From an uncultured Clostridiaceae bacterium (lineage in GTDB: Bacteria; Bacillota; Clostridia; Oscillospirales; Ruminococcaceae): DNA of 35,040 nucleotides. Position 1 is the stretch's first letter, and every line of letters begins with the position of its first letter. The position numbers and the translations under genes were made by a program. Under the pieces are notes generated by a model. That model saw only the letters and a list, made by a program, of their open reading frames with translations. It was not told where the DNA came from and ran no database searches. Of this stretch, positions 5,324 through 10,601 are shown piece by piece. The stretch covers positions 1-35,040 of the forward strand of contig CAMKFY010000002.1 of NCBI GenBank assembly GCA_946411985.1, given 5' to 3'.

Positions 5324-5485
5324 TTTTTTTGTAAAACACCTTTAAAAACCATTAGCAGCTACTATATAGCATTATAAAATTGTGTACATTGTTTAGCTTT
5401 TATACATAATATGGTGTGGTTGTGTTGCTGATGGTTTATTTTGCTTGTTCTTATGTTTAGTTTTTACTTTATGGAGGGTGTTTTT

Positions 5486-6877
5486 TTGTTTCGTGAATTA
5501 AACTCGTTTTTGAAATATTGCATTAACAAAAAAGTAGCTTTTATTGGCGTTGGAGTGTCTAATTTTAAAGCTATAATTATGTTTCTAGAGAAAGGCATTA
5601 ATGTAACAGTTCTAGACAAAAAAAGTGAAGTTGAGCTTGGCAATAAAGCTAACATATTAAAAGAAGCTGGAGCCACGTTTATATGCGGTGAGGATTATCT
5701 TAATAATATTTTAAATTTCGACATAGTAATACGGTCACCTGGTGTATATTTTAATAACAGTGTACTGCAAGCTGCAATTAAAAAAGGTGTTGTTGTAACG
5801 TCTGAAATGGAGCTTTTTTTCGATTTTTGCCCATGTAAAATTATAGCAATAACAGGCTCCGACGGAAAAACAACAACAACAACTTTAATAGCATCTATCT
5901 TAAAGCAGGATGGCTTTAACGTTCATGTGGGCGGAAACATTGGCAAACCTTTGTTATGCGAATTGCAGAATATAGGTGAGAGCGATGTTTGCGTTGTGGA
6001 GCTCTCTAGTTTTCAACTGCTTTCTATGCGAAAATCGCCAGACATAGCCGTTATAACGAATATATCTGAAAACCACCTAGACGTTCATAAAAACATGGGC
6101 GAATATATTAAAGCAAAACAGAATATATTCATCCATCAAAATGCATTTTCAAAATTGATATTAAACTTAGATAATAATATATGTTGTGGGTTTGAAGATT
6201 ATGCAAGAGGCTTTGTTAAAAAGTTTAGCATGAAAAGCAAGATTTTAAACGGCGCCTTTTATGAAGAAAATAGTCAAAATTTATACCACGCTAAAAATGG
6301 CAAATATGAAAAAATTTTAAATTCTAAAGATATAGCACTTTTAGGAGCTCACAACATTGAAAATTTTTTAGCTGTAATAGCGGCCGTGTATGGTATGGCA
6401 AGCCCAAGCAGCATAAAAAAGGTGGCAAAAGAGTTTAAAGGAGTAAAACATAGGCTGGAGCTTGTGAAAAATAACGATAATATATTGTGGTATAACGATT
6501 CTATAGCCACCACTCCAACAAGAACAATAGCGGCTCTAAATAGCTTTAAAAATAATATAATATTAATAGCAGGTGGGTATGATAAAAAAGTGCCTTTTGA
6601 CGGATTAATAGACGAAATTTTAAAAAAGGTTAAGGCATTAATTTTAATAGGAGATACTGCAAACAAAATAGAATGCGGCATCAAAAATAACAATAATTTT
6701 TGTGAAGATTTTAAAATTTTAAGGGCAAAAAGTGTGAGCGATGCTGTTGTTAAAGCTAAAAAATTAGCAACATGTGGTGATGTTGTATTGTTTTCACCGG
6801 CTTGCGCTAGCTTTGATATGTATAGCAATTTTGAAGAGCGTGGCAAGGATTTTGTAAAATCTGTTTTAAAAATATAA
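5486..6877 (+). CDS. murD: UDP-N-acetylmuramoylalanine--D-glutamate ligase
   Basis: ATP-binding ITGSDGKTTTTTLI, NISENHLDVH, LAGGYDKKVPFDGL, LFSPACASFDMYSNFEERGKDF. Likely TTG start at 5486 after GGAGG; the track ORF opens at 5441. Confidence 0.93.
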   Translation: MFRELNSFLKYCINKKVAFIGVGVSNFKAIIMFLEKGINVTVLDKKSEVELGNKANILKEAGATFICGEDYLNNILNFDIVIRSPGVYFNNSVLQAAIKKGVVVTSEMELFFDFCPCKIIAITGSDGKTTTTTLIASILKQDGFNVHVGGNIGKPLLCELQNIGESDVCVVELSSFQLLSMRKSPDIAVITNISENHLDVHKNMGEYIKAKQNIFIHQNAFSKLILNLDNNICCGFEDYARGFVKKFSMKSKILNGAFYEENSQNLYHAKNGKYEKILNSKDIALLGAHNIENFLAVIAAVYGMASPSSIKKVAKEFKGVKHRLELVKNNDNILWYNDSIATTPTRTIAALNSFKNNIILIAGGYDKKVPFDGLIDEILKKVKALILIGDTANKIECGIKNNNNFCEDFKILRAKSVSDAVVKAKKLATCGDVVLFSPACASFDMYSNFEERGKDFVKSVLKI

Positions 6878-6904
6878 GAGAATGTTTGGAGTTTTAAATT
6901 TAGC

Positions 6905-7891
6905 ATGTTAAATTCAAAATTACTTTTAGAATTGTGTTCCATAAATAGCATATCTGGCAGAGAGAAAGATATAAGTGAATATTTAAAAGAAAAGCTTAAA
7001 AAATATTCAAATAATGTTTATATAACAAAGTTAAATAGCGTTATATGCGAAGTTAGAAAGCCAAAAGAAGGCGCGCCAAAAATAGTGTTAGAAGCGCACA
7101 CCGATACAGTAGGCTTAGTAGCAAACGCTATAACAAGCAGTGGCTATATTAAAGCTTCGTGTTGCGGTGGGATGGATTTTAAAAGTTTAATATATAAAAA
7201 GGTTACAGTGTGCTCGGAGCCAAAATTAAATGGCTTCATATTTAAAAATAATCAAAGTGCAAACGATATTCTTGTTGATGTTGGCTTAAAACCAGAATTA
7301 GTAAAGCAATATGTTAAAGAAGGCGATGCTATAGTTTTTGATTATAACCCCGTAATGTTGCAAAATAACAGAGTATGCGTTCGCTATTTAGATAATAGAG
7401 CTTCTGTTTTTGCAATTCTTTTAGCGCTGGAAAAATTAAAAGAAGAAAATTTAAAAGCAGGCATATATGCTATGTTTAGCTCCCTAGAAGAAACTTCGCA
7501 GGGGGGCGCTGCCACTTCAAGCTATGAACTAAATCCAAATATTGCTATATGCGTAGACGTTAGCTTTGCAAAAACTTTAGGTGTTGACAGCTCAACATCT
7601 TTAGGCATTATGGGGCATGGCCCTATGATAGGCATATCCCCTATTTTAAACAGAACTCTATCAACACAATTTATAGATATAGCCAAAAAAAATAATATAC
7701 CATATCAACTAGAAGTAATGAACGGGCTCACAGGCACAAATGCCGACAGCATAACCATAACAAAAGGTGGCGTGCCTTGCGCACTGCTTTCAATACCACT
7801 TAAAAATATGCACACGTCGTTTGAAATAGTAGACATTAACGATATACATAACACAGCAAATTTAATTTACAATGCTATTTTAAATTTTTAA
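6905..7891 (+). CDS. M42 family aminopeptidase (intact active site)
   Basis: EAHTDTVG, RYLDNRAS, SSLEETSQGGA, CVDVSF and NMHTSFEIVD correspond to the M42 metal ligands and catalytic Glu. Confidence 0.88.
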   Translation: MLNSKLLLELCSINSISGREKDISEYLKEKLKKYSNNVYITKLNSVICEVRKPKEGAPKIVLEAHTDTVGLVANAITSSGYIKASCCGGMDFKSLIYKKVTVCSEPKLNGFIFKNNQSANDILVDVGLKPELVKQYVKEGDAIVFDYNPVMLQNNRVCVRYLDNRASVFAILLALEKLKEENLKAGIYAMFSSLEETSQGGAATSSYELNPNIAICVDVSFAKTLGVDSSTSLGIMGHGPMIGISPILNRTLSTQFIDIAKKNNIPYQLEVMNGLTGTNADSITITKGGVPCALLSIPLKNMHTSFEIVDINDIHNTANLIYNAILNF

Positions 7892-7959
7892 ATTTTTAAA
7901 TTTTTATGTGATAGTTTAAATATACACGCGCTTAAAATATTAAAAAAGGGTGTTGGGCT

Positions 7960-8961
7960 TTGGAAGATATAAAATGCATATTAGAGAAGTTTTGTGAAAT
8001 AAATTCAACAATTTCGCAAGAAGAGTTAGCAATAAAAGAAATTACTAAGTTTTTACCGAGTAGTTGTGTATATAAAAAAGATGGAATAGGAAATTTAGTG
8101 GTAAATAAAAACGTAAACGGCTCAAATCTTAGTATAATGCTAACAGCAAACATAGACGAGCAAGGGCTCATGGCATCTGACATAGAGCCGTGCGGAAGTG
8201 TTAAATTTAAAGCTTTAGGCGGCATAGATATAGCGTGTCTGCCGGGCAGTAGAATAATATCAAAAAACAATTTAAATGGCGTTATATGCATGAAAAAACC
8301 AGTACACCTACAAACTGATGAAGAAAGAAGAGGTTATGTTAACATTAAAGAACTATTCATAGACTTTGGTTTTGCAAACAAAGAGCAGGCAGAAAAGCAT
8401 ATAACGCTTGGCGAGATATTTAGATTTAGTAACGAAAATTTAAACTTTTATTATTCTAATGTAATTTCAAAATTCGTGGCAGATAAAGCTTGTTGCGCTA
8501 TATTACTAAAATTATTAAAAAACCTAGATTTAAATTTTAGTGCCGCATTTTTGGTTAAAGAAAAGATAGGATTAAATTCAGCTAAAACAGCCACATATAT
8601 GTTAAAACCAAATATTGCAATAGTTATAAAGCCATATGTGGAGCCAAATAAAAATTTAAAAGATATAATAATACCAATTGCAAGTAAAGGCGTGGTATAT
8701 AGCGAACAGTTAATAAATATTCTTTACAACACAGCAAAAGAGAAAAATATAGCCATAAGGAAGGTTGTTTTAAACGAACTAATAAACACATCAAAAGCTA
8801 TAGCAACATCTTTAAGCGGAGTGGAAGTTATATCTTTAATGCTGCCTTGCAAGCAGTTTGGAGTTTTTAATGTTATAGATAAGGATACTACTCTAAATTT
8901 ATACGAAATTATTAGTAGTTTCTTAACAAATTTGGCTAGTTCTAACATTAATTTAATTTAG
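7960..8961 (+). CDS. M42-family paralog predicted to lack metal binding (pseudoenzyme)
   Basis: M42-like over its full length (333 aa), TTG start. Ligand positions are substituted: ANIDE (H to N), VADK (D to A), KEKIGL (EE to EK), IVIKPY (D to K), KQFGVF (H to F). Confidence 0.75.
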   Translation: MEDIKCILEKFCEINSTISQEELAIKEITKFLPSSCVYKKDGIGNLVVNKNVNGSNLSIMLTANIDEQGLMASDIEPCGSVKFKALGGIDIACLPGSRIISKNNLNGVICMKKPVHLQTDEERRGYVNIKELFIDFGFANKEQAEKHITLGEIFRFSNENLNFYYSNVISKFVADKACCAILLKLLKNLDLNFSAAFLVKEKIGLNSAKTATYMLKPNIAIVIKPYVEPNKNLKDIIIPIASKGVVYSEQLINILYNTAKEKNIAIRKVVLNELINTSKAIATSLSGVEVISLMLPCKQFGVFNVIDKDTTLNLYEIISSFLTNLASSNINLI

Positions 8962-8983
8962 TAAAATATAACACTATTTATTT

Positions 8984-9114
8984 GCTGTTGCATTGCAAAC
9001 AGTTTAAATTTTTTAATGTTATAGATAAATATACTATTTCTAAAATTTATACGAGATTGTTAACAGTTTCTTAACAAATTTGGTTAGTTCTAATATTAAT
9101 TTAATTTAGTAAAA
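8984..9114. repeat. Degenerate direct copy of the 3' end of the second M42 gene (original 8841-8966)
   Basis: Near-matching run including tttaatgttatagataa..tact, ttcttaacaaatttgg.tagttctaa.attaatttaatttagtaaaat. Offset 143-148 bp; the copy has indels and stops. Confidence 0.85.
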
Positions 9115-9311: not shown

Positions 9312-10601
9312 TTGAACGAATTTGAATATTTAGATGTAAATAAAAAGCTTTTAAATTTAGCAGAAATTGTAGAAGCTGAAATTAAACCTCAGTTTAGCCA
9401 TATTAACAAACTTATGGCATTTAATGAAACTAAAGTGTTAAAAGCATTTATAAACTCTAAAGTAAGTACCGCGCATTTTATAGAAAGCACGGGTTATGGT
9501 TATGGTGATGCGGGCAGGGAGAAAATAGACAGTTTATATTCTAACGTGTTTGAAGCTCAAGACGCCATTGTGCGCGCTGGCTTTATATCGGGCACGCATA
9601 CAATTTCTGTGGCTTTGTTTGGGCTGTTGCGCCCTAAAGACGTAATTTTAAATGTAACAGGCACCCCATACCCCACAATACATAGCACAATAGGGTTAAA
9701 AACATCAAACAAAAAGAACAGCCTAATAGACTATGGCATTACGTATAAAGAAATTAACATTTTAAATGAGCTCACCAATAATGAAATAAATTTAGATATT
9801 TTAAAAAAAAGTTTAACTAAAAAGGTTAAAGTGGTATATATACAGCGTTCTAAAGGTTATAGCACACGGCCTAGCCTATCTATAGACGCAATAGAGCAAA
9901 TATGTAACATTGTGCACTCCATTAATGAAAACGCTATAGTTTTAGTAGATAATTGTTATGGCGAGTTTGTGCAAAGAAAAGAGCCCACAGCAGTAGGCGC
10001 AGACGTTATATGTGGCTCTTTAATTAAAAACCCTGGTGGCGCAATAGCAAAATGTGGAGGATATATAGCAGGCAAGAAAGAGTTAATAGAGCTTTGCGCA
10101 GATAGGCTTAGTGCACCGGGGCTTGGCAGAGATGTTGGCTGTAACATGAATCAAAATAAAGATATCCTTTTAGGGCTACATGTTGCTCCTTCGTTTGTGG
10201 GGAATGCTTTAAAAACTTCGCTATTTTTAAGATGTTTATTTTATAAAATGGGCTTTAAAGTGTTGCCTGAAGTAGATGCGCATATGAGCGATATTGTTAG
10301 CGTATTGCAATTAAACAACGAAAAAGCATTAATATCTTTTTGTGAAGGCATACAACAATATTCGCCCGTAGATTCATTTGTTCGCCCTGTGCCAGCCGAA
10401 ATGCCAGGCTACAGCAACAACGTTATAATGGCAGCAGGCACATTTGTAAACGGTGCATCGTTAGAATTAACTGCAGACGCACAACTATGCCCACCCTACA
10501 ACGTTTTTGTGCAAGGCGGGCTATGCTACTATTCATCTAAGTATTGCATATTAAAAACTGCCGAAAAAATGCTAAATGAGAAACTAATAGAATTGCAATA
10601 G
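9312..10601 (+). CDS. Methionine gamma-lyase family protein (PLP-dependent; 'aluminium resistance' protein family)
   Basis: STGYGYGDAGREKIDSLYSNVFEAQDAIVRAGFISGTHTISVALFGLLRP, LVDNCYGEFV, GSLIKNPGGAIAKCGGYIAG (PLP Lys region). TTG start after aggagccaca. Confidence 0.9.
   Translation: MNEFEYLDVNKKLLNLAEIVEAEIKPQFSHINKLMAFNETKVLKAFINSKVSTAHFIESTGYGYGDAGREKIDSLYSNVFEAQDAIVRAGFISGTHTISVALFGLLRPKDVILNVTGTPYPTIHSTIGLKTSNKKNSLIDYGITYKEINILNELTNNEINLDILKKSLTKKVKVVYIQRSKGYSTRPSLSIDAIEQICNIVHSINENAIVLVDNCYGEFVQRKEPTAVGADVICGSLIKNPGGAIAKCGGYIAGKKELIELCADRLSAPGLGRDVGCNMNQNKDILLGLHVAPSFVGNALKTSLFLRCLFYKMGFKVLPEVDAHMSDIVSVLQLNNEKALISFCEGIQQYSPVDSFVRPVPAEMPGYSNNVIMAAGTFVNGASLELTADAQLCPPYNVFVQGGLCYYSSKYCILKTAEKMLNEKLIELQ

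Follow-up and report, generated by a model that had tools for sequence, protein, structure and literature searches.

The M42 gene pair and its neighbourhood

The window analysed here is an entire contig of 35,040 bases from a 0.82 Mb genome assembly (95.6% complete), the smallest genome in its genus. This assembly and those of many relatives are drafts of tens to hundreds of contigs. The only two M42 genes found are designated M42a (6905-7891) and M42b (7960-8961). The locus comprises the following genes and remnants.

5441..6877, + strand: murD, first gene of the conserved neighbourhood (TIGR01087, 385.5 bits, above cut-off; synteny)
6905..7891, + strand: M42a, an M42 aminopeptidase without the Pro-Pro-His loop (five metal ligands and catalytic Glu present; PF05343)
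7960..8961, + strand: M42b, an M42 paralogue of 333 aa without metal ligands, with a TTG start behind a AAAGGGTG-like ribosome site
8975..9109, + strand: degenerate tandem duplicate of the M42b 3' end (last 135 nt, at 84% identity, with two indels and a broken frame; blastn within the window)
9312..10601, + strand: gene of the PF06838 (Met_gamma_lyase) family, last gene of the neighbourhood (523.5 bits; synteny)

The order murD, M42a, M42b and PF06838 lyase is kept throughout the family, which indicates that the duplication behind the tandem pair is ancient, not recent; M42a and M42b share 25% identity. One of the relatives (L033) carries the label uncultured Ruminiclostridium, family Oscillospiraceae. 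Long antisense ORFs on the minus strand at the murD/M42a junction (6349-6951) and at the start of M42b (7932-8291) are probably composition effects. A separate 261-nt copy of the M42b 3' end, with 98% identity, is present in the congeneric genome G007 (L040 7253-7543, minus strand). It does not match the copy in the window, so that duplication of the 3' end seems to have taken place twice.

M42a and M42b match Pfam Peptidase_M42 (PF05343) with 205.8 and 144.8 bits, respectively, against a curated cut-off of 23.2, and M42b is a full-length homologue. The single-chain AlphaFold2 models built with the family alignment have a mean pLDDT of 93.7 for M42a and 91.5 for M42b. The latter shows the M42 fold, and its best Foldseek matches in the PDB are M42 structures with TM-scores of 0.83-0.88; both the profile match and the predicted fold thus place M42b in peptidase family M42. 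The closest solved structures by sequence are TM1048 (1vho) for M42a and TM1049 (2fvg), which has all ligands, for M42b. The five metal ligands of M42a (H65, D163, E196, D218 and H303) and its base E195 are all present, and the alignment bears out the initial annotation in that the upstream gene keeps the M42 ligand set.

Loss of the metal site in M42b

The five metal ligands of catalytic M42 enzymes (H68, D182, E213, D235 and H323 of PhTET2) are all replaced in M42b, at the following sites.

8149..8151, + strand: N64, in place of a metal-ligand His (PhTET2 H68; phmmer against 2fvg, family alignment)
8479..8481, + strand: A174, in place of the metal-bridging Asp (PhTET2 D182; phmmer against 2fvg, family alignment)
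8560..8565, + strand: E201, the catalytic base, kept (PhTET2 E212), and K202 in place of metal ligand E213 (phmmer against 2fvg, family alignment)
8629..8631, + strand: K224, in place of a metal ligand D/E (PhTET2 D235; phmmer against 2fvg, family alignment)
8860..8862, + strand: G301, in place of a metal-ligand His (PhTET2 H323; family alignment)

Phmmer against TM1049, in which all ligands are kept, confirms four of these positions, and the fifth is taken from the family alignment. The initial annotation had also counted five replaced ligands; all five are indeed gone, although the last replacement is G301 and not F300 as it had proposed, since PCRYLH aligns with PCKQFG. At position 301 the orthologue of G007 still has His. 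In M42b, the GGND motif of the substrate pocket has been replaced as well. Two catalytic acids persist in all three species with a ligand-less M42b: the general base E201 and D66, the conserved Asp that follows the first His. Displacement of the ligands to other residues, which had been raised as evidence against a true loss, was examined and rejected, as no alternative His/Asp/Glu/Cys set is conserved across the three species; the conserved residues of these types are C12, C36, D41, D66, E67, H116, C178-C179, E201 and a few other acids.

Among the eight genomes sampled in the genus (the window genome and G001-G007), M42b is ligand-less in the window genome, G001 and G007 and intact in G002, G003, G005 and G006. 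In G004 the later ligands are present and the gene is split over two frames of 221 and 127 aa (L037 443-1403); the visible ligands are intact, the assembly is fragmented, and the split is possibly an assembly error. The ligands are intact in all 29 other aligned M42b proteins and in further family members checked, which include genomes of 0.8-0.9 Mb. The N64, K202 and K224 replacements are common to all three ligand-less genomes, and the recurrence of the same N, K and K in two further species, with 29 aligned relatives intact, is more than chance.

The tree groups the three ligand-less proteins together (support 100/100) beside intact members of the genus, and its M42a part mirrors the M42b part, a topology that indicates a single event of ligand loss. 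This placement within the M42b clade rules out a misaligned paralogue, and the intact M42b of other 0.8-0.9 Mb family members rules out a general outcome of genome reduction. A profile of the ligand-less clade, searched against 398 genomes of the family, scored its three members at 552-573 bits, the next matches (intact genus members) at 271 and below, and matches outside the genus at 233 or less. No further ligand-less member was found by profile searches at the family (398 genomes) and order level; such a profile would not rank independent losses of another kind high, and losses of that sort may exist elsewhere.

The three ligand-less proteins are only 36-48% identical and have full-length open frames, even though every tip branch has accumulated about 0.5-1 changes per residue. 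When the G007 gene was decayed in simulation to 80% identity without constraint, the runs had a mean of 6.5 stops, and 0 of 100 were stop-free. The decayed 135-nt copy downstream serves as a natural control, as its frame is broken while that of M42b is open. The retention of an open frame and of the predicted fold at such divergence indicates that M42b is a selected pseudoenzyme, which has lost catalytic residues and kept fold and frame, and not a decaying gene. Intact M42b has 66 near-invariant columns; all three ligand-less proteins retain 23 of these and have lost another 25, to which belong the GG of the substrate motif and four ligand positions (all but 301). Seventeen derived residues, with N64, K200, K202, K224 and K298 among them, are common to all three and each found in at most one intact protein; N64, C178, K200, K202, K224 and K298 are absent from the 29 intact proteins. 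None of D66, E201, K200, K202 and K224 varies among the three species.

Tip branches are longer in ligand-less M42b than in M42a, by a factor of about 1.4-1.9, which suggests that constraint is relaxed but present. Synonymous sites are saturated, with third codon positions differing by 47-59%. The C-terminal third is the most diverged part (33-34% within the clade), and the PDZ-like domain shows no more than a trend towards better preservation relative to the catalytic domain (Fisher p = 0.07). The initial annotation had described M42b as retained and non-catalytic, which is well supported by the single origin, three species, intact frames, predicted M42 fold and identical derived residues. 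It had held that inactivation or relaxed selection in orthologues would speak against that description; the frames are open in all three species, and some relaxation is seen.

Reciprocal loss of the Pro-Pro-His loop

The flexible loop of PhTET2 (P121-P122-H123) corresponds to the following segments of the gene pair.

7232..7270, + strand: stretch of M42a from which the loop has gone (residues 110-122, GFIFKNNQSANDI), without His (loop table, secondary structure of the model)
8296..8316, + strand: K113-T119 (KPVHLQT) of M42b with His116, matching the PhTET2 loop (alignment, conservation ranking)

All 30 clear M42a relatives outside the three ligand-less genomes have the Pro-Pro-His loop, as do the M42a proteins seen in further loci. 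The loop His of M42a is absent in exactly the three genomes with a dead M42b (the window genome, G001 and G007), a pattern that represents one evolutionary event on one branch. By the alignments and tree, M42a thus lost its catalytic loop on the same branch on which M42b lost its ligands, which is the new observation of this work. The dead M42b of all three genomes keeps K-P-[VI]-H-L-Q-T, with H116 aligned to PhTET2 H123. In the predicted models, 20 residues lie between the strands flanking the loop in M42b as compared to about 7 in the M42a of the window, where strands 108-114 and 122-125 are joined by a short turn. When 7-residue windows are ranked by conservation, the loop is first in the dead clade (6/7 identical in all three) and 144th of 327 in intact M42b. 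At the position of the Asp that contacts the loop (PhTET2 D94), the three genomes have D/D/D in M42a and D/E/N in the dead M42b. Besides the loop, 15 positions of M42a differ consistently in the ligand-less clade, none of them clearly diagnostic.

Deletion of the loop sharply cuts the activity of PhTET2, and H123 has been suggested, as a possibility only, to sit near the active site of the adjacent subunit (PMC8993905). A loop serving its own subunit would be expected to disappear from the dead paralogue and to persist in the live one. The opposite is seen, which fits a loop of M42b serving the metal site of M42a. The loop of TM1050 has no His and TmPep1050 (TM1050) is an active aminopeptidase (PMC3511314), so the loop-less M42a could be active alone. 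A third M42 paralogue, found in genome G091 (L026 2495-3499), is closest to TM1050 and has all metal ligands and, as in TM1050, a loop without His. The M42a frame of G001 lacks about the first 45 codons and starts inside the domain at a contig join. There, the M42a contig joins unrelated sequence at about codon 46, as the murD contig does after murD (L034 14724-15300, L055 2850-3043); these joins could reflect an insertion, a rearrangement, a broken partner or a chimeric assembly.

A candidate split active site and related systems

On balance, M42b is favoured, by a modest margin over the contrary, to be a selected non-catalytic subunit that works with M42a in a heteromer, metals coming from M42a and the loop from M42b. 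In the ancestor, both tandem paralogues would have been active, each with a flexible Pro-Pro-His loop reaching the active site of the neighbouring subunit. The metal site of M42b would then have been lost in the clade of the window genome, G001 and G007, presumably with its peptidase activity, and two conserved lysines at the former ligand sites may pair with the retained E201 and D66. The loop of M42a, left with nothing to serve, could have disappeared, and that of M42b could have been retained since it still served M42a. Function would then reside in an M42a:M42b dimer, which may be part of a mixed tetrahedral particle, with the loop histidine of M42b supplied in trans to the metals of M42a. 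The more specific proposition, an obligate M42 heteromer whose active site was split by reciprocal loss such that one paralogue contributes the metal centre alone and the other nothing but the catalytic loop, in trans, is put forward with the chances evenly balanced.

A purely structural or regulatory role for M42b (scaffold, gate or control of oligomerisation), with M42a managing without a loop and the M42b loop kept for packing, is in line with the retained predicted fold, the known M42 hetero-oligomers and the activity of M42 enzymes that have no loop His. It is nevertheless judged unlikely, as it leaves unexplained why a catalytic-loop motif is the most conserved segment of the dead protein and is lost from its live partner. 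A non-catalytic structural or regulatory subunit was what the initial annotation had envisaged; its retained, non-catalytic character stands, and the purely structural or regulatory part is probably too modest given the kept loop. Less probable still is an independent job outside the peptidase system, such as peptide or ligand binding or moonlighting unrelated to M42a. The replaced GGND motif and the new conserved lysines would suit it, but M42b still adjoins M42a in the conserved neighbourhood and the changes in both genes coincide on one branch.

The invariance of D66, E201 and the new lysines would also agree with M42b being a hydrolase or other enzyme with altered, metal-free chemistry, although M42b has lost the substrate-binding motif and conserves no other set of metal ligands, which makes this reading very improbable. 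Hardly any weight is given to a pseudogene decaying in a shrinking genome. The genome is the smallest of the genus, the M42b branches are longer than those of M42a, and partial 3' duplications lie nearby; the open frames in three diverged species, the decay simulation and the identical derived residues nonetheless stand against decay, as do the duplicated 3' tail, which lost its frame where M42b did not, and the intact M42b of other 0.8-0.9 Mb family genomes. The most likely role of M42b, as read from the alignments, would therefore be that of a non-catalytic subunit donating the loop histidine. The earlier suggestion of a mixed M42 complex containing M42b appears better supported given the loop loss in M42a and the known M42 hetero-oligomers.

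A clade whose live paralogue has no loop and whose dead paralogue bears one suggests a heteromer in which the loop works in trans. This bears on two general points: whether the flexible loop with its His acts, in TET peptidases, on the active site of the same subunit or of the next one, and how often M42 paralogues hetero-oligomerise in cells. If the split active site is real, the pair would amount to a complementation experiment made by nature, with the TET loop seen to work across subunits. M42 would also gain a place among the metallopeptidase pseudoenzymes; a 2024 review of such inactive homologues leaves M42 unmentioned (PMC11266112). MEROPS formerly listed CelM-like M42 proteins as non-peptidase homologues, but CelM and TmPep1050 turned out to have aminopeptidase activity (PMC3511314).

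M42b shares the fold, the position of the catalytic Glu and the PDZ-like domain region with the M42 TET aminopeptidases (PhTET2, TmPep1050 and CelM), and the position of the loop His with PhTET2. It differs from them in the absence of the five metal ligands, as M42a does in the absence of the Pro-Pro-His loop. Among the Thermotoga maritima proteins TM1048, TM1049 and TM1050, the nearest structure to M42b, TM1049, keeps its metal ligands, unlike M42b. In M16 heteromers the active-site residues lie in one half and both halves are needed (PMC12731061, PMC11266112); the inactive partner resembles that proposed for M42b, whereas the fold is unrelated. A comparable division of labour in M42 was not found described in the literature searched.

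The M42 paralogues YtoP and YsdC of Bacillus subtilis were cross-linked as a heteromer in cells (PMC10090944; PDB 9a5r). They are, like M42a and M42b, two M42 paralogues of one Bacillota cell, and they heteromerise in situ. To our knowledge, neither YtoP nor YsdC has been reported to be dead. PhTET2 and PhTET3 of P. horikoshii form a hetero-dodecamer, a mixed tetrahedral M42 particle (PMC4220976). That particle was assembled in vitro and modelled from homodimers of two active enzymes, in contrast to the window pair, which has one dead subunit and is proposed to form a heterodimer.
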